From: an uncultured bacterium
GTDB lineage: Bacteria; Hydrogenedentota; Hydrogenedentia; Hydrogenedentales; CAILVY01
Length of the DNA: 50,497 nt
Direction: 5' to 3'
Assembly: GCA_937951485.1 (NCBI GenBank)
Contig: CALEDJ010000050.1
Coordinates: 1-50,497, forward strand
A program made the translations under genes and the position numbers. Numbering within the stretch: the first letter of the stretch is position 1; each line of letters begins with the position of its first letter. Below are positions 246 to 31,668 of this stretch, one piece after another. The notes beneath the pieces were generated by a model that was given only the letters and a program-made list of their open reading frames with translations, ran no database searches and was not told the origin of the DNA.

Positions 246-2642
246 ATGCAATGCGATACTGGAAACCGCGCAGGGCGCGCGGTGTGGCATGCGTCAGAGG
301 CGCTGTCGGACCGGGTGAAGCGGCTGCGGCAGGAGTTCTTTTCGTTCGAGACGCGCGCGTTCCGGAACGAGGTGATCCCTTTCACCACCGGCGCGCCGTG
401 GGACACGGTGTATTCGTATCATCGGTGGACGAACGTGCCGGAGGTCGCCACCTTCCTGCGGGCCTATGAGGATTCGCTGACGGCCGCGGCGCGGTCCGTG
501 CCCTTGCCGCCCGATTTCTGGAAAATGCCGCTCATCAAGCGCGTCGCGGTGTTTTTCGCCGAAGTGCTGCGCCGGCATCTGCCGGTCGTCATTCTCGACG
601 GCGAATTGATCGTCGGGGCGCATTTCAACGTGGCATTGTCGCTATGCCTGAACAAGCGCGAAGCGCACCGCCGCAACCACATGGAAGAGGCGTTCCGCCG
701 GGACATCCTCGCAGCGTCGAATTACGGCATCGGGAATTGCGGCGCGGTGCCGGGGCATCTGATTCCGGACTATCCGCGGGTGCTGCGCGAGGGTTTCCGG
801 GGCATTGTCGAAGAAATCCGCACCGAGACGGCGCGCGAATCAGACCGGGACAAGCGGGCCGCGCTGGAGGCTTTCCTGACCGCCTGTGAGGCGGCGCGCG
901 ATTTCGCGCGGCGCTATTCGGCGGCGGCGGATGCCGCTGCGGCGGATGCGCCGCCGGAACGCGCGGCGGAACTCCGTGAAATCGCGCGCATCTGCCGCAA
1001 AGTGCCCTGGGAACCGGCGACGACTTTCCACGAGGCGCTGCAATCGCTCTGGCTGACGCACATGCTCGTGCTGGTCAGCGAGTCCTATCCCGGCGCGGGT
1101 ACGTCCTTCGGGCGCTTTGATCAATATCTCTGGCCGTATTACCGCGACGACATCGCGTCGGGCCGCATCACCCGCGCCTGGGCGCAGGAACTGCTGCGGT
1201 GCTTCTGGATCAAGCCGAATTACGCCTACGACTACCAGGGCCGCGTGGGCCGCAACCAGGGCATCAACTCCTCCTTCGGGCAACTGGTCACGCTGGCGGG
1301 CTGCGGCCCGGACGGCGAGGACCTGTCGAACGACCTGACCTATCTTTGTCTCGATGTCATCGAGGAGATGAATCTTCTCGAACCCAAGCCCAACGTGCGG
1401 CTGCATGCGAGGACGCCCGCCCCCCTGCTCGACCGCGTCTGCGCCATGCTCGCACGCACGCAGGGCGCGCCGTTCCTGCTGAATTTCGACGAGATTTCGA
1501 TGCGCGGCCTGCGCCGCGAGGGGCTGCCGGAGGATTCCCTCTGGGACTATGGCATTGTGGGCTGTCTGGAGAATACGCGCCAGGGCGACGACCGGTCCGG
1601 CACGGTGGACGTCAACCTGAATCTGGCAAAACCCGTGGAATTGGCGCTCTTCCGAGGATGCGACCAGGCCAGCGGCGCGCAACTCGGTCCGCGAACGCCC
1701 GACCCGCGCGTCATGCGCACGTGGGAAGAATTTGAAGCGGCCTTCCGCGCACAACTCTCCTGGTGCTTGCGACGATTGGTCGAACTCAACAACAGGGCGG
1801 ACACCGTGCGTGCGCTGTATGAGCCGACGCCGTACCTGTCCGCGCTGGTCGGCGGCTGCGTCGAGAAGCGGCTGGACATCACCCAGGGCGGCGCGCGCTA
1901 CAATTACATCACCGTCGAGGGCGTGGCGATGGCCACCGCCGCCGATTCGCTCTGCGCCGTGAAACGGCTCGTTTTCGAGGAAAAGCGCGTCCCGATGGAT
2001 GGTCTAATCCACGCCATAGAGAAAAACTTCGAGGGCGAGGAATTTCTGCGGCAAATGCTATTGAACAAGGCCCCGAAGTTCGGCAATGACGACCCCGAAG
2101 CGGACCGCATGGCGCATGATTTGACGCAATGGTGGGCAGAGGAGACCGCCACATTGAAAACGCCAGTCACGGGCAAGCGCTACCGCGCGGGCTATCTATC
2201 ATGGAACTATGGCATCGCCTACGCGCCGCTCACCGCCGCCACGCCCGACGGGCGCAAGCGCGGCGCGTATCTTTCCAACGGTGTCGCCGCCGTGCCCGGC
2301 ATGGACCGCGAAGGCCCCACCGCCGCCGCGCGTTCCGTGGGCAGCCTCGGCCTGGAATGCGTGCCCAACGGCGCATCGCACACCATCTCGCTGTCCCCAT
2401 CGCTCGTGCGCGATGACGAGCACCTGAAAAAACTCGCCGCGTTCTTGCGCGCCTACGCCCATGAAGGCGGCTCCGCCCTGCAAATCAACATGATTGACGT
2501 GGACACCCTCCGCGCCGCGCGCGACCACCCCGACGCGTTCCGCAACCTCCTTGTCCGCGTCACCGGCTACAACGCTTACTTCGTCAATCTCGGCCGGGAA
2601 ATCCAGGAAGAAATCATCGCCCGCGAAGCGCACCGGCTGTAA
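246..2642 (+). CDS. Glycyl radical enzyme, pyruvate formate-lyase family, substrate unknown
   Basis: This is a 798-residue protein, the usual length for the PFL/diol-dehydratase superfamily. The active-site cysteine lies in the motif VGCLEN (Cys440, with Glu442). The C-terminal radical loop reads RVTGYNAYF with Gly774 as the presumed radical site. Such enzymes cleave C-C or C-X bonds anaerobically and need a radical SAM activase, but none lies in this window, so it must be upstream or elsewhere. The loop around Cys440 is GCLE rather than the GCVEP common in diol dehydratases, so I do not assign a substrate. An AGGAG ribosome site lies about 11 nt before the ATG. The last 79 bp recur at 3363-3441 beyond the hicBA pair. 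Confidence 0.88.
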   Translation: MQCDTGNRAGRAVWHASEALSDRVKRLRQEFFSFETRAFRNEVIPFTTGAPWDTVYSYHRWTNVPEVATFLRAYEDSLTAAARSVPLPPDFWKMPLIKRVAVFFAEVLRRHLPVVILDGELIVGAHFNVALSLCLNKREAHRRNHMEEAFRRDILAASNYGIGNCGAVPGHLIPDYPRVLREGFRGIVEEIRTETARESDRDKRAALEAFLTACEAARDFARRYSAAADAAAADAPPERAAELREIARICRKVPWEPATTFHEALQSLWLTHMLVLVSESYPGAGTSFGRFDQYLWPYYRDDIASGRITRAWAQELLRCFWIKPNYAYDYQGRVGRNQGINSSFGQLVTLAGCGPDGEDLSNDLTYLCLDVIEEMNLLEPKPNVRLHARTPAPLLDRVCAMLARTQGAPFLLNFDEISMRGLRREGLPEDSLWDYGIVGCLENTRQGDDRSGTVDVNLNLAKPVELALFRGCDQASGAQLGPRTPDPRVMRTWEEFEAAFRAQLSWCLRRLVELNNRADTVRALYEPTPYLSALVGGCVEKRLDITQGGARYNYITVEGVAMATAADSLCAVKRLVFEEKRVPMDGLIHAIEKNFEGEEFLRQMLLNKAPKFGNDDPEADRMAHDLTQWWAEETATLKTPVTGKRYRAGYLSWNYGIAYAPLTAATPDGRKRGAYLSNGVAAVPGMDREGPTAAARSVGSLGLECVPNGASHTISLSPSLVRDDEHLKKLAAFLRAYAHEGGSALQINMIDVDTLRAARDHPDAFRNLLVRVTGYNAYFVNLGREIQEEIIAREAHRL

Positions 2643-2687
2643 ATGGGCGAAACAACACCCTTTCCCTTATACAGGTGCCTGGAGATT

Positions 2688-2905
2688 CTAGAGTTTTTCC
2701 CAATCATCCTTGCTCACTCCGGCTTGGCGGAGTATGCGCATCAAGAGTTCCCTCCTTATGCCGGCTTGATGAGGATTGGGCACCCGTATGGTGATATCGT
2801 CCTTGACCATGAAAGCGTGCCTGCCGCCGGATGGGGGCCTTCGAAACCAAGCAACTTGAGACAGCGGAGAAGTTCCCTGCGCTTGATTGGCCCAAACACA
2901 GGCAT
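2688..2905 (-). pseudogene. hicA: HicA-family toxin, frameshifted
   Basis: The reading frame starts at the ATG overlapping the hicB stop (TGATG) and gives MPVFGPIKRRELLRCLKLLG followed by FEGPHP. The frame then has to slip by one base near 2818-2826 to continue as RHAFMVKDDITIRVPNPHQ, followed by a helix ending KDDWEKL and a stop. The joined product of about 72 residues matches the dsRBD-like HicA mRNA interferase, including the catalytic-type His in RHAF. The 218-nt span is one base short of a multiple of three. Either the toxin is inactivated or there is a base-calling error. The order antitoxin-then-toxin is known for hicBA loci. Confidence 0.78.
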
Positions 2906-3147
2906 CAGGCCACTTCCCGAATGTTCAGTTCAATGCCATCTATTGCAGGCAGCGGCAGATTCTTGTGAACCCGGAAAAGCACCCATTCTTCCAACACTTC
3001 ACGCAATTCTTCGCGGCACCGTTCCAATGTTTCAGCGTTGGCATAAACGCCGTTGCATTCAGCGATTTCACCATAATAACTGCCATCATCGGGGAGAATT
3101 TCATATCGCGCACGGCCCAGTGCTGCTTGCAGGTATTCAATCAGCAT
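2905..3147 (-). CDS. hicB: HicB-family antitoxin
   Basis: This 80-residue protein has the HicB partial RNase H-like fold pattern: YEILPDDGSYYGEIAE, then GVYANAETLERCREELREVL, then a short beta tail. HicB neutralises HicA and usually represses its own promoter. A GGGAGG ribosome site lies 5 nt before the ATG. The stop overlaps the hicA start, so the two are translationally coupled. A perfect dyad, TTGTGA-N3-TCACAA, lies 22 nt upstream at 3169-3183 and is a likely operator. The protein has no separate C-terminal HTH domain, so DNA binding by this short form is inferred. Confidence 0.85.
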   Translation of the reverse strand: MLIEYLQAALGRARYEILPDDGSYYGEIAECNGVYANAETLERCREELREVLEEWVLFRVHKNLPLPAIDGIELNIREVA

Positions 3148-3168
3148 GAAGACCTCCCTTCTTGACTC

Positions 3169-3183
3169 TTGTGATATTCACAA
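3169..3183 (-). promoter_or_regulatory. Palindromic operator candidate for hicBA
   Basis: A perfect inverted repeat, TTGTGA-TAT-TCACAA, lies just upstream of the hicB start, where an autoregulatory antitoxin would bind. No clear -10/-35 pair was found to fix the transcription start. Confidence 0.45.
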
Positions 3184-3291
3184 CACCTACGTCCGCATTT
3201 GCCGGGCTTCTTGTGTTTTGACCGTGGATAGATGCGCTGTTACTACAGGATAACACAAAAAATGATTGTTCGATAGTTCTTCTTTAAGCCG

Positions 3292-3326
3292 AAGACCTGT
3301 GAGGTCATGCAAACCTTACAGGTCTT
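3292..3326. repeat. Hairpin AAGACCTGTGAGGT / ACCTTACAGGTCTT
   Basis: A 14-bp stem with one G-U wobble and a 7-nt loop lies between hicBA and the duplicated radical-enzyme tail. It resembles short dispersed palindromes rather than a gene-specific terminator, but its run of T at the end could let it terminate leftover transcription. Confidence 0.6.
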
Positions 3327-3362
3327 TTGTGCGAACTTGGGAAGTTTCCGCACTTCCGCTGT

Positions 3363-3441
3363 CGGCTACAACGCCTGCTTCGTCAATCCCGGCCGGGAAA
3401 TCCAGGAAGAAATCATCGCCCGCGAAGCGCACCGGCTGTGA
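3363..3441 (+). repeat. Second copy of the glycyl radical enzyme's last 79 bp
   Basis: This segment matches 2564-2642 without gaps. It has four differences, all transitions, one of which turns the TAA stop into TGA. It still reads GYNACFVNPGREIQEE before EIIAREAHRL and the stop. There is no upstream gene attached, so it is a fragment, not a functional radical domain. Together with the original it brackets the 720-bp hicBA segment as direct repeats. Confidence 0.9.
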
Positions 3442-3771: not shown

Positions 3772-4728
3772 CTAGTTGTCGCGGGCGCGATCGAGCAGGG
3801 TTCCCAGGAACAGCGCCATTCCCTTGGACACCGGCGCGGCTCCCGGATAACGGATAAACTCGACATGCCCGTCCATAAACAGCACATTGGCCCCGCCGGG
3901 CACATGGTTGAAGTACCGCACGTTGCGCGAAATCGTGTCGAACATCACGAAGACCTCACTCTGCGCCGTAGCGCTCGCGGCGGGATTGTTGATGTCCGTG
4001 ATCAGGAAGCGCTCGATGCCTTCGCGGAGCCGGTACACGGTGGCGCCGCCCGCATTGCCGTCGTTCTGATAGCCCGGCGGCATGGCGCGGTCGGAATCCA
4101 CGAGTTGAAAACTGCGGGCGAGGAACTGCGATTCATCCGTCAGCGTGACCGAGGTGATCGCCTCGAAAAGGAGGCTGAAAAAGGCCCCGATGAACTGGCG
4201 CGGCCCCGAAGCGTTGGGGTCGTCCAGAATGAGGTTATGGCTTCCAGGCAGATTGGCGATGATGTCGCCGATGTCAATCTGCGGGTGCTGATCGCCGCAT
4301 CGGTCCAGCACCCAGCCGGTATAGACGTAACTGAGATCGATCTGCCCGCGCCGCCGGTGCAGGTTGTATGCTCCTGTTTCCGGGTCCCGGATTTGATCGA
4401 GGGTGCTGTCGGGATCGGATGGGCACAGGATGATGGCGGGATCTGTGAGGTACTCCGGATAAATTGCATTGACCATCGGCCCGGCGGCAAGTATCACGCG
4501 CGTGCGCGATCGCGCCTCGAATTGCAGCGGAGGAAACTTCCCCCCCGGCGACTCGTTGGCGTACATCTTGTAGATCAGCCCGAATTGCTTGAGATTGTTC
4601 TGGCAACTCGAACGGCGGGCCGCTTCACGGGCGCGGGCCAGCGCAGGCAGGAGTATCGCGGCCAGAATGGCGATGATTGCGATGACCACCAGCAGTTCAA
4701 TGAGGGTAAAGCCTTTGGATTCCTTCAT
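3772..4728 (-). CDS. Prepilin-like protein with N-methylation motif (DUF1559 type)
   Basis: This is a 318-residue protein. It opens with the type IV prepilin/pseudopilin signature [20 protein letters not shown], where a peptidase would cut after Gly6 and methylate Phe7. An amphipathic region with [10 protein letters not shown] follows. The C-terminus carries [15 protein letters not shown], the H-x-DG tail typical of the large DUF1559 families of Planctomycetota, Lentisphaerota and Hydrogenedentota. These proteins are membrane-anchored and surface- or periplasm-facing, but their individual roles are mostly unknown. A GAGGAA ribosome site supports the start. The lipoprotein gene follows directly. 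Confidence 0.85.
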
Positions 4729-4835
4729 GTCGGATTCCTCGCGTGGTTTTTATCCAGCGCAGGATCGATCACGGCCGCCGAAACACGCGCCCATCTTCAG
4801 AATGTGAATATGACCCAAGACGGGACACCGGGGTT

Positions 4836-5432
4836 TCATGTGGAATCAGGCTTTGCTCTCTGCCGATAGAGGGCGGCGTCCACCGCAGCGGCCATGGCCG
4901 CCGTGTCGAGGCCACCGCCAAGGAATGCGTCCAGTGCCGTGGCGGCGGCGAGGGGATTGTCAATAATGGCCCTGTGTTCAAGATACAGCGCCTGAATCCA
5001 GGGCTGCGCGGCGATCCACGACGCCACCTGCTTCAGGTGTTTGGCATAGACTTCGGCCATTTGCGCGTCGTCGTCCGCATCGGTCGCTTCGCCCCGGCGT
5101 ATCATCATCTGGCGCTGCGACGCAAGCACTTCGGGCATGGCCCGCCGCATAAAGACGACCCGGCACGGATGCGTGGGCGGCAATTCGGGCAGAAGAAAGG
5201 AAATGATTTTCACGGCCTTGCCGACGGCCTCCGGCAGCCACGTTTTGTCGTCCTTCAGACGCTTCACCCGCTCGAATTCGTAGTAGCCCTTCGGATTGTC
5301 GTCATCGGCCCGGCGGATGCGGTCCGTCAGGACGGGCATGCCGCCCGCCTCCAACATCCTCATGGCCATCGAGGTGCCCGAACGCGGCAAGCCGGAGACG
5401 ATGGTAATGAAGTCTCGCGGGGTGTTTCCCAT
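4836..5432 (-). CDS. Sulfotransferase-family protein
   Basis: This is a 198-residue protein. It has an N-terminal 5'-phosphosulfate-binding loop, SGLPRSGTS (about residues 13-21), followed by MRMLEAGG. A second conserved block is VVFMRRAMPEVLASQ, corresponding to the 3'-phosphate-binding region of PAPS-dependent sulfotransferases. It would transfer sulfate to an unknown acceptor in the cytoplasm. I chose the ATG at 5432 because the frame upstream of it is only the 9-bp repeat tract. The protein is short for the family, so it may be a minimal version. The prepilin-like gene lies 107 nt downstream on the same strand. Confidence 0.75.
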   Translation of the reverse strand: MGNTPRDFITIVSGLPRSGTSMAMRMLEAGGMPVLTDRIRRADDDNPKGYYEFERVKRLKDDKTWLPEAVGKAVKIISFLLPELPPTHPCRVVFMRRAMPEVLASQRQMMIRRGEATDADDDAQMAEVYAKHLKQVASWIAAQPWIQALYLEHRAIIDNPLAAATALDAFLGGGLDTAAMAAAVDAALYRQRAKPDST

Positions 5433-5494
5433 GGGGGGATTGTAGCGAATAGCGGAGTGCCGGCGCCACGCGCCGCGCCGGGAAAAGGTCAACA

Positions 5495-5631
5495 AGGACG
5501 GCAGGGACGGCAGGGACAAGAGGGACAAGAGGGACGGCAGGGACGGCAGGGACAAGAGGGACAAGAGGGACGGCAGGGATGGGAGGGACAAGAGGGACGG
5601 CAGGGATGGGAGGGATGGGAGGGACGGCGGA
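5495..5631. repeat. 9-bp tandem tract between divergent genes
   Basis: About 15 consecutive 9-mers alternate between three units: GGGACGGCA, GGGACAAGA and GGGATGGGA, in blocks. It lies in the divergent intergenic region of the sulfotransferase and sugar isomerase genes. The purine strand is the plus strand. The reading frames through it (Gly/Gln/Arg/Glu on one strand, Leu/Pro/Ser on the other) are not supported as proteins. Confidence 0.9.
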
Positions 5632-5748
5632 CAGCGGCAGAAAGGATGGGGAAGGCGATGTGGTATGCCTTTGGGTGCTGCGCGGGGCGGCTGTTGTTTG
5701 CTATGATGGCCGATATGCTTGAGGATTGATTGGGAGTATCCAACCATT

Positions 5749-6618
5749 ATGTTCAAACTGGCGGCGTTTACGGACGAAATATCGCAGGATTTGGCGCATG
5801 CCTGCGCGGTGTGCCGGGAATTTGGCGTGACGGGCGCGGAAATCCGGGGTGTGTGGGAGACGAATGTAGCGGCGCTGAGCGACGCGCAGGTCGCGGATAT
5901 CCGGCGCATCGTGGCCGATCACGGCATGACGGTGTGCAGCATCGGTTCGCCGTTCGGCAAATGCGAACTGGATGATCCCGCCGCTGTCGCCGCGCACATG
6001 GAGATGCTGCGCCGCTGCGCGGCGATCGGGCACGCGCTGGATTGCCGCATGGTGCGCGGCTTTGTGTTCTGGGGGCACGGCCGCATCGAGAAGCCGTGGG
6101 ACGTCATCCTGCGGGCCTATGAACCCGTCCCGCGGATCCTGGAATCGCTGGACATTGTGCTCGGCGTGGAGAATGAAGCCGCCTGCTGCGTCGGCACGGC
6201 GGGACATCTGCGGACGTTTCTGGACAAGATGCAGTGCGATCGCATCCGGGCGGTGTGGGATCCGGCGAACCACGTCCATGACCCGGAAGGCGCGGCCATA
6301 CCGCCCTATCCCGACGGTTATGCGCTGCTGAAAGATGACATCGTGCATGTACACATGAAAGACGCCGGACCCGGCCCGGACGGCGTCATGCAGAATGTGT
6401 TTCTGGGCACGGGCCGCGTGGATTGGGCGGGGCAGTTGCAGGCGCTGAAGGATGACGGCTACGCCGGCTATGTCTCGCTGGAAACCCACGTCAATCCGGA
6501 AGACCTGCCGGAGGGGCTGCGGCCGCGCTACGGCCGCTATTGCACGGGACAAGGCCGTGAGGGCGCGAGCCGGGTCTGCCTGGCGTGGGTGCGCGATGCA
6601 GTGTCCGCATTGGCATGA
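5749..6618 (+). CDS. Sugar phosphate isomerase/epimerase, xylose isomerase-like TIM barrel
   Basis: This is a 289-residue protein of the AP endonuclease 2/xylose isomerase-like barrel family. The expected metal ligands are visible in order: Glu in LGVENEAA, Asp/His around WDPANHVHD, His in VHVHMKD and the last Glu in SLETH. GTGRVDW is also typical. Such enzymes isomerise or epimerise sugars or hydroxy-acids in the cytoplasm; the substrate cannot be read from sequence. I chose the ATG at 5749 because the Met is followed directly by the first beta strand FKLAAFTDEIS. The ABC ATPase starts 6 nt downstream, so they share a transcript. Confidence 0.85.
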   Translation: MFKLAAFTDEISQDLAHACAVCREFGVTGAEIRGVWETNVAALSDAQVADIRRIVADHGMTVCSIGSPFGKCELDDPAAVAAHMEMLRRCAAIGHALDCRMVRGFVFWGHGRIEKPWDVILRAYEPVPRILESLDIVLGVENEAACCVGTAGHLRTFLDKMQCDRIRAVWDPANHVHDPEGAAIPPYPDGYALLKDDIVHVHMKDAGPGPDGVMQNVFLGTGRVDWAGQLQALKDDGYAGYVSLETHVNPEDLPEGLRPRYGRYCTGQGREGASRVCLAWVRDAVSALA

Positions 6619-16660: not shown

Positions 16661-17761
16661 ATGGCAATCAAGCATTTTCCCGTGGCATTCCGTCTTCTTG
16701 CGGCGCTGATGAGTGTTGCCGTATCGTCTGTCGCGGTCACATGGCCGCCGTTGCCGGATCATGACGGCGAAGCGGCGCTTCCCGCACAGGAATGGCCGCA
16801 GCGTCCGGGACCGCGCACGGTCACGGCGCATCTGCGCTATCCCGGCGGCGCGCTGGCGCAGGTCACTGCGGAGACCGGCCTGATGCTCGTGTTGCACAAC
16901 TGGGGCGGCACGGCATGGCGCGGCGCGCCGGACCCCGGGCAACTGGTTGCACGATACAACGTCATCGCCATCGGCGTGGATTACCTGCAAAGCGGCCCCC
17001 ATGACGCGGACAACGACCCGCCCTATGATTTCGGCTGTCTCCAGGCGGTGGACGCGCTGCGCGCGCTTTGGTGGATCTATGACGGACTGACGATGATGAA
17101 CAAGCCCTTCGACAGCGGGCGCATCTACGCGACAGGCGGGTCCGGCGGCGGCAATGTGGCTTTGATGGCCAACAAATTCGCGCCGCGCACCTTCGCCTGC
17201 GTCGTTGACCTCTGCGGCATGGCCAAACTCAGCGATGATATCGCTTTCGGGCTGCCCGGCGGCAGCCGTCTCGACGCCGGTTACCGGCGGGACGGCGACG
17301 CATCCCGCGCATTGCCCACCCATGCGCAGGAAATCCGTTTTGTGGGACACCCCGTTCATCTCGAAAAGATGCGCGCCCTCGGCAATACGGCACACGTGAT
17401 CACCGTACATGGCATCGAAGATGAGGCGTGCCCGGCGGCCGACAAGCGCGAAATGGTCGCAAACATGCAGACCGCCGGGCTGCGCGTTACGGCTTATTTC
17501 ATCAGACCGGACGATTTGGACGGCGAGGCGCTTAAGAGCATCGGACACGCCCTCGGCGACCGCACCCGCATCGTGTTTCGCTTTGCCGACCCCTGCCTTC
17601 TCCCCAATACGCCCGAAACCGCACACCGCGCCGCGCCCAGCGACTTTGAGCGCCGCGATGACGCCGTCGCCTATACGGTTTCAGGCGGCCGATATGTTGT
17701 TTCGTATCGGGCGGGATACCCCACGATCCGCTACGAAACGGACGAATCCACATTGCCTTGA
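16661..17761 (+). CDS. Secreted alpha/beta hydrolase-like protein
   Basis: This is a 366-residue protein. An N-terminal hydrophobic signal ends near SSVAVTWP. The hydrolase fold shows LMLVLHNWGG (oxyanion region), a nucleophile elbow ATGGSGGGN, DLCGMAKL, and a late acid/His pair in VHGIEDEACP and SIGHALGD. It resembles the DUF2920/peptidase S9-like exported hydrolases. The substrate is unknown, an ester or peptide being possible. GGAG lies 12 nt before the ATG. Confidence 0.72.
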   Translation: MAIKHFPVAFRLLAALMSVAVSSVAVTWPPLPDHDGEAALPAQEWPQRPGPRTVTAHLRYPGGALAQVTAETGLMLVLHNWGGTAWRGAPDPGQLVARYNVIAIGVDYLQSGPHDADNDPPYDFGCLQAVDALRALWWIYDGLTMMNKPFDSGRIYATGGSGGGNVALMANKFAPRTFACVVDLCGMAKLSDDIAFGLPGGSRLDAGYRRDGDASRALPTHAQEIRFVGHPVHLEKMRALGNTAHVITVHGIEDEACPAADKREMVANMQTAGLRVTAYFIRPDDLDGEALKSIGHALGDRTRIVFRFADPCLLPNTPETAHRAAPSDFERRDDAVAYTVSGGRYVVSYRAGYPTIRYETDESTLP

Positions 17762-17902
17762 CCGTCCTTTCACAGCAATGCCGCCCAATATCATTCGGGT
17801 TGAAGCGCATTGTGGATGGACTTTGCGGCACAGCGGGATAAGCCCGTTGTATACCATGACTTGCGCTGGACTGACAGGTGTATTGCGGGGGGCCGAGCGT
17901 AC

Positions 17903-26525: not shown

Positions 26526-26542
26526 CACAAACACCGGCATTT

Positions 26543-26624
26543 GCGAAATGGGCTGTTTCCGCGCTTATGATCGCGAAATATCCGGGATTTTTGATGGGGC
26601 CGAGGTCCGGAACGCCCATTTCGC
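26543..26624. other. Intergenic stem-loop, 11-bp inverted repeat
   Basis: GCGAAATGGGC (26543-26553) and GCCCATTTCGC (26614-26624) are perfect complements 60 bp apart, with partial pairing continuing inward (GTT-CCG). It occupies the gap between the GH172 and GDPD genes and could be a processing or attenuation structure. No poly-T follows. Confidence 0.5.
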
Positions 26625-26650
26625 TGATGCCTTGAACAGATCGTGGAGCC

Positions 26651-27529
26651 ATGCATTCCATCACTATCGCACTGGCGGCGCTGGCCCTGATCGGGCAGCC
26701 AGGGAATCCGGCGGCGGATGCGGTTTTCTTTCAGGCGCACCGCGGGGGACTGCTGGAGGTCCCGGAGAACACCCTGGCGGCGCTGGACCACGCCTGGGCC
26801 ATCCCCGGAGCGGTGCCGGAAATTGACCTGCGCACCACAAGCGACAATGTAATCGTCTGCATGCACGACGAGACGCCGAAGCGCACCACCAACGCGCCGC
26901 CGCCGTGGGCCGACGCCAATCTCCGCGAGATTCCGCTCGAACAGGTGCGTCAGTGGGACGCGGGCGCGCATTTCGGCGCGGCATACGCGGGCGAGAAGGT
27001 TCCGACGCTGGATGAGGTCTTCGACCGGATGAAGGGCCGCCCGGAACGGCAGGTGTATCTGGACATCAAGGACGTCGATCTGGATGCGCTGCCGGCGAAA
27101 ATCCGGGGCTACGCGCTGGATCGGCAGGTGATTTTCGTGCACGGCGACCCGGAAATGTGCGGGAAACTCCAGGCGCTCTATCCCGGCGCGCGCACCATGA
27201 CGTGGATCAGCGGCACGCCAACGGCCATCCGCGCGAGGTACGGGGAACTCGCGCGCGGCGGCTTCGCGGGGATCAGCCAACTCCAGTTTCATCTGCGCGC
27301 GCGGCGCGCGCAGCCGCCGTTCGCGTATGTACTCGACGACGATTTTCTCCGCGAAGCGGTGCGGGCCACGCGCGCGGCGGGCGTGGAACTGCAACTGCGT
27401 CCGTTCCAGTTCGATGCGGCGTCGCTGCGGCGGCTGATGGACCTCGGCGTCCGCTGGTACGTCACCGATGAACCCCGCGCCTTCGCCGCCGCGGTTGAGG
27501 CCGCGAGACGGCTGGACGCCGCCCCATGA
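26651..27529 (+). CDS. Glycerophosphodiester phosphodiesterase, exported
   Basis: This is a 292-residue TIM-barrel enzyme that hydrolyses glycerophosphodiesters to glycerol-3-phosphate and an alcohol. Motifs: QAHRGG (first catalytic His), PENTLAAL, EIDLRTTSDNVIVCMHD (metal ligands and second His), VYLDIK and the final WYVTDEP. The N-terminus is a short hydrophobic signal, so it is probably periplasmic. Its last codons belong to the 97-bp direct repeat whose other copy lies at 30947. In the ancestral arrangement the gene probably ran straight into trmH by an ATGA overlap. Confidence 0.9.
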   Translation: MHSITIALAALALIGQPGNPAADAVFFQAHRGGLLEVPENTLAALDHAWAIPGAVPEIDLRTTSDNVIVCMHDETPKRTTNAPPPWADANLREIPLEQVRQWDAGAHFGAAYAGEKVPTLDEVFDRMKGRPERQVYLDIKDVDLDALPAKIRGYALDRQVIFVHGDPEMCGKLQALYPGARTMTWISGTPTAIRARYGELARGGFAGISQLQFHLRARRAQPPFAYVLDDDFLREAVRATRAAGVELQLRPFQFDAASLRRLMDLGVRWYVTDEPRAFAAAVEAARRLDAAP

Positions 27530-27605
27530 TGGGCCGTTGTCCCCACAGCGAACCCTTCGAGATCGGCGGGCGGGCGTTCACCGCCGCCGAGATCATCGCG
27601 GCGCT
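27509..27605 (+). repeat. Left 97-bp direct repeat: GDPD end plus trmH start
   Basis: This segment matches 30947-31043 at 92 of 97 positions without gaps. Weaker similarity continues upstream with a small in-frame deletion. It carries the end of the GDPD gene and the first 26 codons of trmH (MMGRCPHSEPFEIGGRAFTA and AEIIAAL), after which the trmH frame runs into unrelated sequence. The left trmH start is therefore a dead fragment. Confidence 0.92.
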
Positions 27606-27668
27606 TTGGTCTTGCCGGGCAAGCGGCCTGGGCCATTGCCGCAAGATGTTCAGGCGAACACGAAATAT

Positions 27669-28480
27669 TCACTCATTGCAACGTTTATGTTTCTTGATCT
27701 GCGTCATTGCAATCAGAACACAGCCCGCTCCAAGGAACAGGGCCGCTGAAATTGCCTGGGAAAAGGTAATTCCAAGATACACGAGGGGCGAATCACCCCG
27801 AAAAAATTCCGTGACGAATCGGAAAAGTCCATAGCCACAGAGAAAGAGCAAAAAGACTTGACCATCGTATTGCTTCCGGGGTAATGCCAAGAGGCACATA
27901 AAGAAAAGAAAAAGTTTAAGAAAAGCGTTGTATATCTGAACGGGGTGTAAAGGGATAGTCGAGGTACTTTCGGATGCAATCATTCCCTGGATGTAATGGC
28001 TAACGACAACAGGAGTCAGTTTCATTGGAAAAGTCACCGCCCACGCGACATTGGTTGGCCTTCCCCAGCAGCAACCACTAAGAAAACAGCCAACACGGGT
28101 GATGGAAATTCCCAGCGCAAGAGGTGCCGCGAGCAAATCGAGGCCGCCCAACACGCGCGTTTTTGCCACTCGGAAATAGGCGACGGCCGCAACGAGCCCG
28201 CCCAAGAAACCGCCGTAGAACACCCAGCCACTTTGCCAGATATATAAGGCCCGTCGAGCGTTTTGCAGGCTCTCGTACTGGAGAATCCAGAAAAGCCGGG
28301 CCCCGAAGAGCGCACAGAGACGAAGACAGGTAAGGCAATGATAGGAGTCAGCACGATTTCAGGGTCATACCGTCTCCGCAAACGAATTGTCAACCATATC
28401 CCTACCACAAAAGCAAGAATAAGAAATACCATATAACTGAATAGACCAAAATTATCGGTTGAGATAAGAACAGGATACAT
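27669..28480 (-). pseudogene. lgt: Prolipoprotein diacylglyceryl transferase-like gene, frameshifted
   Basis: The N-terminal part MYPVLISTDNFGLFSYMVFL and GIWLTIRLRRRYDPEIVLTP is in one frame. The frame must shift near 28318-28322 (one base missing) to give LCALFGARLFWILQYESL and then GWVFYGGFLGGLV. The core TRVGCFLSGCCWGRPT and HPVQIYNAFLKL fit Lgt, the membrane enzyme that lipidates prolipoproteins. The 812-nt span is not a multiple of three, as expected for a one-base loss. GAGAGAAG precedes the ATG at 28480. A housekeeping lgt presumably exists elsewhere, and this copy would serve the island's own products if it were intact. Confidence 0.78.
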
Positions 28481-28551
28481 TTCTTCTCTCGCTTGACACG
28501 TGCAAGAACTCACCATCAGAAATCTAATGGGGGGTAAGATGCTATTGACGG

Positions 28552-29274
28552 CTAAGGCGTATTGTGGATAGCCTTCGAAGACTTCTTGACATAGTAGCGC
28601 ACACCGGCCGTTGCATATATGGCATTAACGGCATCGAGTCCCGTCTTGTGGATACATCCATGCCCGAACTTTCCCCGATAGTAATAAACCAGGATATCCT
28701 GTTTCCCCCCATCGTTTTCGAGCGGTGCCACGGTCCCTTTACAAGAGATGGGGGGAATGCCTTCGCCTGAAACGCGACTTGCATGCTCAGGCCTAGCAAA
28801 GAAGCCCTCACCAAGATGTATCGCTATATCCGCGTCTCTTACATCGTCTTTTTCGATAAGGTCACCCTCCGTTATCAGGGTTTCAATGCCAGGTGGGAGA
28901 ATCCAGCAATTCGTTACCTGATAAGCATAAGCAAAACAGTTGTACTTGATGCTTGCGTTTCCTACGTGGTTGCTATCATCCAAGTAATTTAGGCTATGCA
29001 TCATGCGATGCATGTCTGCACGCTGACCGCTGGTAAAATTTGATGAGGTTGTCTCTGTCCGCATATCTTTTACCATCGTATACCGTCTGGCTGCGACGAC
29101 AACCCTCGTACTTGTTCTCAATCCGTCGTAGGGTTCATAGTAGATATGAATTGTGTACGGATTGTTGTTGGAATCACGCATGGTTCGTTGTTCGAACGGG
29201 AGTTCTTGAGCAAGCACAACGCAGTTCAAGAAAAGCATAATGGAAATGATAGTGATCAAAGCGGATCTTTTCAT
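28552..29274 (-). CDS. Secreted protein, possible papain-fold cysteine peptidase/amidase
   Basis: This is a 240-residue protein. A clear signal peptide (KRSALITIISIMLFLNCVVLA) ends near QELPF. No family is certain. The arrangement KYNCFAYAY, then DVRDADIAIHLGEGFF, then DILVYYYRGKFGHGCIHKTG resembles NlpC/P60- and CHAP-like folds, in which a Cys at a helix start (NCFAY) pairs with a later His (FGHG). The active-site assignment is an inference. It lies 15 nt downstream of the membrane-anchored gene and 71 nt upstream of the Lgt-like gene, all on the minus strand. Confidence 0.55.
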   Translation of the reverse strand: MKRSALITIISIMLFLNCVVLAQELPFEQRTMRDSNNNPYTIHIYYEPYDGLRTSTRVVVAARRYTMVKDMRTETTSSNFTSGQRADMHRMMHSLNYLDDSNHVGNASIKYNCFAYAYQVTNCWILPPGIETLITEGDLIEKDDVRDADIAIHLGEGFFARPEHASRVSGEGIPPISCKGTVAPLENDGGKQDILVYYYRGKFGHGCIHKTGLDAVNAIYATAGVRYYVKKSSKAIHNTP

Positions 29275-29289
29275 GGCCGTTCTCCTTGA

Positions 29290-30471
29290 TTATTTTCGGA
29301 CATTATTGCGGATCACTTCTCGAGCGAATGTTAGAATCTCGCGCTCTCTCAAATACGCTCCTCTTATCATCTCTTGTGGCTCCATGTAAACACCAAGGAT
29401 ATCCGCCAGAAGCCAGCCATATTCGTCTACTTGGGAATCATCCCCGAGGACTGCCATGGCTTGCCGTGGCTCGATCCACCCCTGGCTCACTCGGTCTTCT
29501 ACAGCAGCCCTTACGAGGGCGCGCATATCCTCACGAAATTGAAGGTAGGCATCAAGCGTTGCGCCTTGGAGTGGGGAGAATGTATCTTCGTTCGCCCATT
29601 CGTCTGCAAGTTCCCCCAAGACGTGATCAATGTGATAGGCAAGTGTCGTGGTCGTACGTGATACCAGCGTTTCAGGTCGTTGGTCTGGGTGCGGCCAAGT
29701 CTGAAGGATATCTTCCTGATGGGCGGCTTCAATCCGATCGGCCATGGCCACGAGAAGTTCAAGGTGCTCGACCGAGGCGGGAAAAGCAGCCAGCAGCATA
29801 GGTAAGGCATTGCCGCTCCAGGGGTCCATGACCGTTGGCATCGGCGGGACGCCAATAGATTGCATCAACGGTAGTTCAAATAGGAAAACATTCACCGCGT
29901 TGCGAATCTCCCTGTACAACGCCGCCACTTCCTGCTGAGAACCGTACTCGATGACTTCCAGAAGCCTGGCGATCCTCGGGTCCGCCGCAAGGTCTATGCT
30001 TAGCGTCACCGCATCCCATACAGGACCAGCGTGCGTTATGGCGCGCCAGCGTGGCGAGAAAAGCGGCGAAAGGTCATGGGTCAGCAGATTGCGGACCGAT
30101 TCCTCCAGCGTTTCACGCGCCACTTCGTCGCGAATGGCCTGCCGTTCCTCCTCCATCTTTTGCGCAATGGCTGGATCAACGATGTCAAATCCGGGAAAAC
30201 GGAATGGGGTGGCGGCGCTTTTCTGCTGTTTTGGTGGTGACGCGGCATCATCGGAAGAGGGAGCAGGGGGCGGAGCAGACAGATCTTCGTCATGCGGAGC
30301 GGTCATGCCCGTCGGCGTTTCTTGGGGGGCCTCCTCCGATATGACGATTGGCTTGATCGTTACGCCGATGAATGAGCGCCCCCACGACGCGGCAATTACG
30401 AAAAAAACGAGCACGCCAAACACTGCAAGCCACTCTAACGCGGGGCGTTTAAGAGTCTGACGCTTTCCCAT
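29290..30471 (-). CDS. Membrane-anchored protein of unknown function
   Basis: This is a 393-residue protein. One N-terminal membrane span (WLAVFGVLVFFVIAASWG) is followed by a proline/serine-rich linker (about residues 45-85) and a long, mainly alpha-helical soluble part facing outward. I recognise no domain. It is the first gene of the island's transcription unit. The promoter upstream contains a run of ten C between its -35 and -10, so expression may switch on and off. The ATG is about 108 nt from the predicted transcription start, with a stem-loop in the leader. Confidence 0.62.
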   Translation of the reverse strand: MGKRQTLKRPALEWLAVFGVLVFFVIAASWGRSFIGVTIKPIVISEEAPQETPTGMTAPHDEDLSAPPPAPSSDDAASPPKQQKSAATPFRFPGFDIVDPAIAQKMEEERQAIRDEVARETLEESVRNLLTHDLSPLFSPRWRAITHAGPVWDAVTLSIDLAADPRIARLLEVIEYGSQQEVAALYREIRNAVNVFLFELPLMQSIGVPPMPTVMDPWSGNALPMLLAAFPASVEHLELLVAMADRIEAAHQEDILQTWPHPDQRPETLVSRTTTTLAYHIDHVLGELADEWANEDTFSPLQGATLDAYLQFREDMRALVRAAVEDRVSQGWIEPRQAMAVLGDDSQVDEYGWLLADILGVYMEPQEMIRGAYLREREILTFAREVIRNNVRK

Positions 30472-30501
30472 CTTTCTACTCCCCCATTCACAAATGTGTA
30501 A

Positions 30502-30533
30502 TCAGGGAGACGTCTTTGGATGTCCCTGATTGC
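30502..30533 (-). promoter_or_regulatory. Leader stem-loop upstream of the island genes
   Basis: AATCAGGGA and its complement TCCCTGATT flank a 14-nt loop inside the predicted leader. It may be a repressor site at DNA level or an RNA hairpin. Confidence 0.4.
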
Positions 30534-30585
30534 AGGATCATTGCTGCTCTCCGGCAATTACGTGTATGCTGTCATCCGACTTTAT

Positions 30586-30616
30586 CGTATATTTCACCCC
30601 CCCCCCGAAATGTCAA
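30586..30616 (-). promoter_or_regulatory. Promoter with a homopolymer spacer (C10 / G10)
   Basis: Read on the minus strand: TTGACA (30616-30611), then TTTC, ten G (30606-30597), TGAAA, then TATACG (30591-30586). The spacer is 19 bp. Slippage of the G run by two would give the optimal 17 bp. Promoters of this form control phase-variable surface genes in Neisseria and Bordetella. Confidence 0.55.
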
Positions 30617-30946
30617 GAAAAAAATCTCGCGGTTTGTGTGAAGACTCAGGGGGCGCTGTCGGGGGAGGTAGGTAAGAGTTCGACGTGACTTCGGGGGAGT
30701 GAAGTTTGTGCATGTGCTACACTTCAATCGTGGGGATTGGAGGATAGATTGTTGAACGAGGCTCAGCGCGGGTTTCAGGTTGTGAGGGTACGGTGTATTC
30801 TATTGCGGATGTTGGCGCGCCGGTTTGAACTGGGTGTAGCAATGCGTTTCACGGGATTCAATTTCGTCGGGCTGCAACTCGTGTGCGGGTCGCTGGATGA
30901 ACGCCCGCAGTGGATAAGGCGCGGCTGCACGGTCGCGGTTGCGCGG

Positions 30947-31043
30947 CGGCTGGACCCCGCCCCATGATCAGCCGTTGTCCCCACAGCGAACCCTTCGAGG
31001 TCGGCGGGCGGGCATTCACCGCCGCCGAGATCATCGCGGCGCT
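30947..31043 (+). repeat. Right 97-bp direct repeat: intact trmH start
   Basis: The partner of 27509-27605. Just upstream of it the sequence still encodes ARRLDPAP and a stop, a second copy of the GDPD C-terminus (ARRLDAAP in the intact gene), and the ATG of trmH follows at 30964. Confidence 0.92.
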
Positions 31044-31668
31044 CGCGCCCATGCTGCTGGAGGAGCGCCGCCGCCGCATTGACGCGGTCGTCGCGGAACG
31101 CACGTACAGCGTCGTGCCGGTGCTGGAGGGACTCTACGACCTGGGCAACGTCAGCGCGGTGCTGCGCAGCGCCGAGGCGCTGGGCTTTCAGTCGGTGCAC
31201 ATCGTGGATTCCTCACCGGAATTCAAGGCGGCCAACCGCGTCACCCAGGGCGCGGAAAAATGGCTGGACATCCATGTCTGGCCGGACACCCCGGCGTGCG
31301 TCACCCAACTCCGGGACCGGGGCTACCGGATTCTCGCCACGCACTTCGACTGCGCGCGCCCCATTGAGGAAATCGCCTTCGATGCGCCGGCGGCCATTGT
31401 CTTCGGCAACGAGCGCGACGGCGTCAGCCCGGAAATGCTCGCCTGCGCCGACGAACGCATCATCATCCCCATGCCGGGCTTCAGCCGGAGTTTCAACATC
31501 TCCGTCGCCGCCGCCATTGCGCTCTACCACATCCGCCGCGACCGTATCGCCCGCCTCGGCCGCCACGGCGACCTCGACGCCGCCGATCGCCGCATCCTCA
31601 CCGCATCCTATTACCTTCGCAGCATCGTCAACGCCGAAAGCATTCTCCTGCGCAGCACAAGGCAATGA
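30964..31668 (+). CDS. TrmH/SpoU-family RNA 2'-O-methyltransferase
   Basis: This is a 234-residue SPOUT methyltransferase. The three family motifs are clear: LGNVSAVLRSAEALGF (motif 1), AIVFGNERDGVS (motif 2) and IPMPGFSRSFNISVAAAIAL (motif 3). It uses AdoMet to methylate a ribose 2'-OH, most likely tRNA Gm18 (trmH), but rRNA is possible. The start is fixed by conservation between the two repeat copies. The island separates it from its former upstream partner, the GDPD gene, so it may now depend on sequence within the island's right end for expression. Confidence 0.88.
   Translation: MISRCPHSEPFEVGGRAFTAAEIIAALAPMLLEERRRRIDAVVAERTYSVVPVLEGLYDLGNVSAVLRSAEALGFQSVHIVDSSPEFKAANRVTQGAEKWLDIHVWPDTPACVTQLRDRGYRILATHFDCARPIEEIAFDAPAAIVFGNERDGVSPEMLACADERIIIPMPGFSRSFNISVAAAIALYHIRRDRIARLGRHGDLDAADRRILTASYYLRSIVNAESILLRSTRQ

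Follow-up and report, generated by a model that had tools for sequence, protein, structure and literature searches.

An island without a detected recombinase between two diverged copies of a GDPD-trmH gene junction in a Hydrogenedentota genome and its likeness to insertion with long target duplication

Many bacterial genomes contain small islands that lack a recombinase gene, and for most of these islands there is no explanation; the target duplications made by transposases measure 2–14 bp. Long target duplications of variable length have been documented (PMC3031569, PMC1643837), and the term 'insertion with long target duplication' was introduced in 2000 in a comparison of Helicobacter pylori strains (Nobusato et al., as described in PMC1643837, PMC3031569, PMC4978471 and PMC3154945). 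In H. pylori such insertions mainly accompany restriction-modification genes, an association that is frequent but does not define the class. A further known route is homology-facilitated (homology-assisted) illegitimate recombination, described for Acinetobacter, Pseudomonas stutzeri and Streptococcus pneumoniae (PMC2884548).

Here we describe an island at the junction of a GDPD-family phosphodiesterase gene and a trmH-like gene in an uncultured bacterium of the Hydrogenedentota. The window analysed (50,497 nt) is the whole of contig C50 of a 77-contig, 4.55-Mb metagenome-assembled genome (MAG) which is 94% complete.

The duplicated junction and its cargo

The GDPD-trmH junction is present twice on the plus strand, at 27492–27605 and, offset by 3438 bp, at 30930–31043, and the two copies are 90% identical over 114 bp. 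Within them a 97-bp core (27509–27605 and 30947–31043) shows exactly five mismatches. Leftward the homology fades in the right copy. A gap of ∼6 bp, placed by eye, also lets the motif CGCGGTT align at the left edge, so that the duplication may extend over ∼120 bp. The junction repeat is not a product of chance: when 10-kb segments of this genome were paired at random, none of 214 pairs contained a two-copy repeat of such quality.

Each copy completes one of the neighbouring genes, and both genes are intact. The GDPD gene (26651–27529, plus strand; PF03009, E = 6.6e-22) is complete and has its 3' end within the left copy, which consists of the GDPD end, an ATGA overlap and the first 27 codons of trmH. 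At this overlap (27526) the GDPD stop codon shares bases with the ATG that starts the 27-codon trmH fragment. The right copy holds a truncated GDPD end and the start of the complete trmH-like gene, which encodes a SpoU-family RNA methyltransferase (30964–31668, plus strand; PF00588, E = 9.1e-35). Compared with this intact gene the left fragment carries one silent and three replacement changes.

The island itself (27606–30929) is 3324 bp long with a GC content of 0.517, compared to ∼0.62 in the flanks, and contains three genes, all on the minus strand. A paralogue of prolipoprotein diacylglyceryl transferase (Lgt) at 27669–28516 is interrupted by a frameshift near position 28300; the copy in the relative discussed below is intact and is 39% identical to another Lgt gene found on contig C27. 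The other two genes encode orphan proteins of 240 aa (28552–29274) and 393 aa (29290–30471), each with one hydrophobic stretch at the N-terminus, in the 240-aa protein a probable signal peptide. Neither belongs to an accepted family in Pfam or NCBIfam, and searches of the PDB sequences returned nothing significant. The 240-aa protein gave a faint match to DUF7689 below the cut-off and, by eye, its YNC, GDL and HAS motifs resemble those of NlpC/P60-like peptidases. Structure models were poor for both orphans (pLDDT 31 for the 240-aa and 54 for the 393-aa protein); the larger one is predicted to be mostly helical, and a fold search with its model gave nothing at E < 0.1. A few other Hydrogenedentota encode distant relatives of the 393-aa protein. 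In one of them (G019) such a relative adjoins a protein faintly related to the 240-aa protein, so the two genes are probably an old pair.

Island reading frames were searched against Pfam, NCBIfam, PADLOC and PHROGs, and no recombinase, transposase or integrase family was found in the frames tested. The island has no detectable terminal inverted repeats, and its genes contain no restriction-modification domains. These observations bear out the anatomy described in the first-pass annotation, namely 97-bp direct repeats with 5 of 97 positions differing, a left copy that completes GDPD and a right copy that completes trmH, around a lower-GC, minus-strand block of three genes without transposase, integrase or terminal inverted repeats; of the three genes, the Lgt gene proved to be frameshift-split.

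Several other classifications of the island were rejected. For a phage origin, the 393-aa protein was unmatched in viral contigs and no PHROG match fell below E 0.05; for a defence island, there was no convincing PADLOC match. A multi-copy mobile unit was dismissed since each genome has a single occurrence of the left-end motif, at the island, and within the genome the island DNA has no match but itself. Structured DNA at the island end was also discarded, as the sequence folds no better than shuffled sequence.

The same island in a second lineage

The island is also present at this locus in a second Hydrogenedentota MAG, on contig DSBB01000362.1 (L037/L046; SpSt-1162). SpSt-1162 is binned in another family and the rest of the bin has no equally close matches to a 12-kb query; the contig is possibly misbinned. 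Its gene order is GDPD (92% identity to the window), trmH codons 1–85 and then the island, and it stops within the 393-aa gene, short of the right repeat and boundary. The left end of the island falls on the same base in both lineages (window 27606, L037 860), although the trmH fragment beside it is 179 bp longer in the relative than in the window. Among the relatives compared, GDPD adjoins trmH only in L037, which has the island; an empty site with a single junction copy, which the first-pass annotation had expected in some close relatives, was seen in none of them.

Identity between the window and the relative is 92.2% in the flank and 92.3% in the island. This equal divergence argues that the insertion probably took place before the two lineages separated. 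Furthermore, the 97-bp core differs at 6 and 8 of 97 positions between the lineages, similar to the five left-right differences within the window. The insertion is thus not recent, in agreement with the first-pass annotation, which had judged the repeats not to be fresh.

Between the relative's trmH fragment and the intact trmH of the window there are 10 silent and 6 replacement changes, the same proportion as between the two GDPD genes (30 silent and 18 replacement), whereas the short fragment of the window has one and three. These small numbers hint that only recently the longer fragment may have become superfluous or may have been refreshed from the intact gene.

Identity is uneven along the island: ∼92% from 27606 to ∼28238, 46–66% over most of ∼28238–30088, with 67–80% at 29688–30088, and mostly ∼90–98% from ∼30088 on. 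The diverged interior corresponds to window 28239–30040 and L037 1493–3334 and lies between arms of ∼92%. Judged by these identities, one of the lineages has acquired a distantly related allele in the middle of the island (the start of Lgt, the 240-aa gene and the end of the 393-aa gene). The exchange is sharp, which suggests that the two orphan genes undergo diversifying recombination.

Gene-end duplications elsewhere

A scan for local repeats present in two copies, with a minimum length of 60 bp and a minimum identity of 85%, covered 2.34 Mb or 51% of the genome. Just three such pairs were identified, and all of them are gene-end duplications. Besides the island, one lies in the same window and concerns the 3'-terminal 77 nt of a gene for a PFL-like glycyl-radical enzyme (246–2642), at 2564–2640 on the plus strand, which recur with three mismatches 799 bp downstream at 3363–3439 (plus strand). 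The 722 bp between them (2641–3362, minus strand, GC 0.50) carry a HicB-like gene (2905–3147; PF21748) and a HicA-like frame, which was recognised by eye and is split or broken (2688–2905). The other pair is a 94-bp repeat on contig C3 (17814–17907 and 20069–20162; L081 17814–20000 with L198). In this case the convergent junction of a trmL-like gene (17316–17840) and a sodium:solute symporter (SSF) gene is copied whole on both sides of a 2161-bp cargo with a DUF1559 gene, and again the left copy completes one gene, trmL, and the right copy the other, the symporter.

A further case was encountered in a MAG of another family (L044 of G030, 4528–5293), where 57 bp of the 3' end of a trmH gene (5214–5990) are repeated around a 652-bp cargo with a gene for a small membrane protein. 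It comes from 149 kb of relatives' DNA, largely trmH-centred and hence a biased sample. Over the four cases the repeats are 57–114 bp long and 4–14% divergent, and they have no obvious sequence in common. Repeats at C45 124756, C10 90836 and C9 139057 were rejected as lying within paralogous or repetitive genes, and one at L042 10521 as a structured intergenic repeat.

SpoU-family RNA methyltransferase genes are found at three of the four loci. This is a post hoc observation, with one of the three from the trmH-centred sample, and either a target preference or coincidence is possible.

The window also contains repeats of other kinds. A dispersed palindromic repeat of ∼97–110 bp at 26536–26633 has the ends GAGGCATTTGCGAAATGG...CCATTTCGCAAATGCCTC and forms a strong hairpin. 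The first 1.22 Mb sampled contained 29 copies, which corresponds to perhaps 100 per genome, and several of them lie ∼10 bp upstream of a promoter-like TTGAnn-TATnnT. No Rfam match was found in the window at gathering scores; the repeat could be either a MITE-like or a regulatory element. A tandem array of 9-bp units occupies 5478–5652 and a 54-bp tandem repeat lies at the contig end (50364–50471).

Origin of the island and comparison with known systems

The anatomy of the locus suggests that the island is probably an old insertion with a long target duplication at the GDPD-trmH junction. A linear or circular fragment with a small accessory cluster (the orphan pair and the Lgt paralogue) would have been joined into the junction, and the target would have been duplicated on both sides over ∼100 bp, perhaps originally up to ∼290 bp. 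As the junction was duplicated on both sides, both host genes stayed intact. The process may have begun with breaks or nicks in opposite strands some 60–300 bp apart or, alternatively, with one-sided homologous invasion while the other end was joined illegitimately. The fragment would then have been captured and the direct repeats produced by fill-in or copying. Afterwards the superfluous copy would drift and the cargo decay, with the left trmH fragment trimmed in the window lineage or extended in the relative. We infer both the break-and-fill-in chemistry and this order of events.

Ku-dependent end joining was tried as the joining step and rejected. A search for Ku (PF02735) recovered it from the positive control, Bacillus subtilis, but not from this 94%-complete genome or from nine relatives, and classical bacterial end joining is therefore unlikely. 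The genome encodes a ComEC-family competence protein, so DNA uptake is possible.

Several points speak against the long-target-duplication reading: none of the relatives compared showed an empty site, the cargo is not of the restriction-modification kind that prevails in H. pylori, and the contig of the relative stops before the right repeat. A further point is the identical left end of the island beside two trmH breakpoints 179 bp apart. It needs a one-sided deletion or extension whose endpoint coincided exactly with the island edge; otherwise a unit with a fixed end would have inserted twice. Such a unit would be a discrete mobile element whose left end is defined and which entered the trmH locus two or more times by means of enzymes from elsewhere in the cell, and the base-identical end beside different trmH positions is what speaks for it. 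We consider it distinctly improbable, as the equal divergence of island and flank favours a single shared insertion, the end sequence occurs once per genome, terminal inverted repeats are lacking and the targets of the other cases have no obvious sequence in common. The longer trmH fragment of the relative would also be accounted for by Campbell-type integration, if the homologous stretch carried in differed in length. In that scheme a circle with the cargo and ∼100–290 bp of GDPD-trmH recombined at the junction, and the repeats are the carried homology. The gene-completing topology is exactly what it predicts, and the repeats could have differed from the outset, compatible with the 5 of 97 differences. 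However, a donor circle that already had the host junction beside the cargo would be required in every separate case, and we found no such circle, no plasmid gene and no recognised replication or transfer gene in any cargo, which makes Campbell-type integration rather unlikely.

Att sites that restore a gene end typically have repeats of this length and position, and the two copies might accordingly be the attL and attR of a site-specific integrative element that lost its integrase. The island has no integrase in either lineage, though, and the four cases involve unrelated sequences and positions (the start of trmH, the end of the PFL-like gene, the trmL/SSF junction and the end of another trmH), so that we regard this origin as very unlikely. 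Both sequences stem from metagenome assemblies, which could raise the suspicion of an assembly artefact or a strain mixture, and the first-pass annotation had likewise considered a strain-mixing artefact. The repeats are, however, short and 5–10% divergent, hence easy to resolve, and the separately deposited assembly of the relative shows the same linkage of the island to a trmH fragment. With the same island on the independent contig DSBB01000362.1, we reject an artefact as scarcely credible.

Insertion with long target duplication remains our preferred reading, and the interpretation in the first-pass annotation is supported in part. A foreign-looking insertion with old repeats and no recombinase was correctly recognised in the first-pass annotation; the accompanying claim of an unrecognised insertion route was too strong, as long-target-duplication insertion was named in 2000 and the homology-facilitated route (PMC2884548) is also known. 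The repeats far exceed 2–14 bp, the copies run into their own neighbour genes and neither a transposase nor an integrase was found. The route itself is recognised, and the locus fits long-target-duplication insertion or the related homology-assisted illegitimate recombination. A broader, two-part claim is unlikely to hold as a whole, namely that Hydrogenedentota undergo recurrent recombinase-free insertion leaving gene-end target duplications of 57–114 bp (possibly up to 290 bp), and that the island is in addition a discrete unit whose left end is fixed and which entered GDPD-trmH more than once.

At least three insertions of one topology in a single MAG, with different ages and unrelated cargoes, and one in a relative suggest that insertion with long target duplication extends beyond H. 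pylori and is not peculiar to restriction-modification genes. Genes can in this way be added at gene junctions without breaking their neighbours, and two-copy repeats at gene ends provide a simple sequence signature for searches.

Among the known systems, classical transposons differ from the island in their terminal inverted repeats and short target duplications of fixed length. Islands of tyrosine or serine integrases are likewise bordered by gene-end repeats of comparable length, but here there is no integrase and no att sequence common to the four cases. In eukaryotic moved genes the direct repeats also derive from host sequence that is not a transposon, and the authors of that work draw the comparison with the H. 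pylori target duplications; unlike the island, that system is attributed mainly to ectopic recombination of excised circles. Homology-facilitated illegitimate recombination likewise traps foreign DNA with one homologous anchor and without a recombinase, and a ComEC-family protein is encoded here, but in each case the route would require a donor fragment with the host junction beside the cargo. The H. pylori insertions share with the island repeats of host sequence that far exceed a transposase target duplication, the lack of an obvious recombinase and the preservation of host genes. They differ in that the cargoes here are an orphan pair with Lgt, a HicB/HicA-like pair, a DUF1559 gene and a small membrane protein instead of restriction-modification genes, in the narrow range of repeat lengths (57–114 bp, 4–14% divergent), in the phylum and in that no empty site was seen here among the relatives compared. 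The novelty lies in the setting, with another phylum, cargo other than restriction-modification genes, several events of different age in one genome and a fairly narrow range of repeat lengths.
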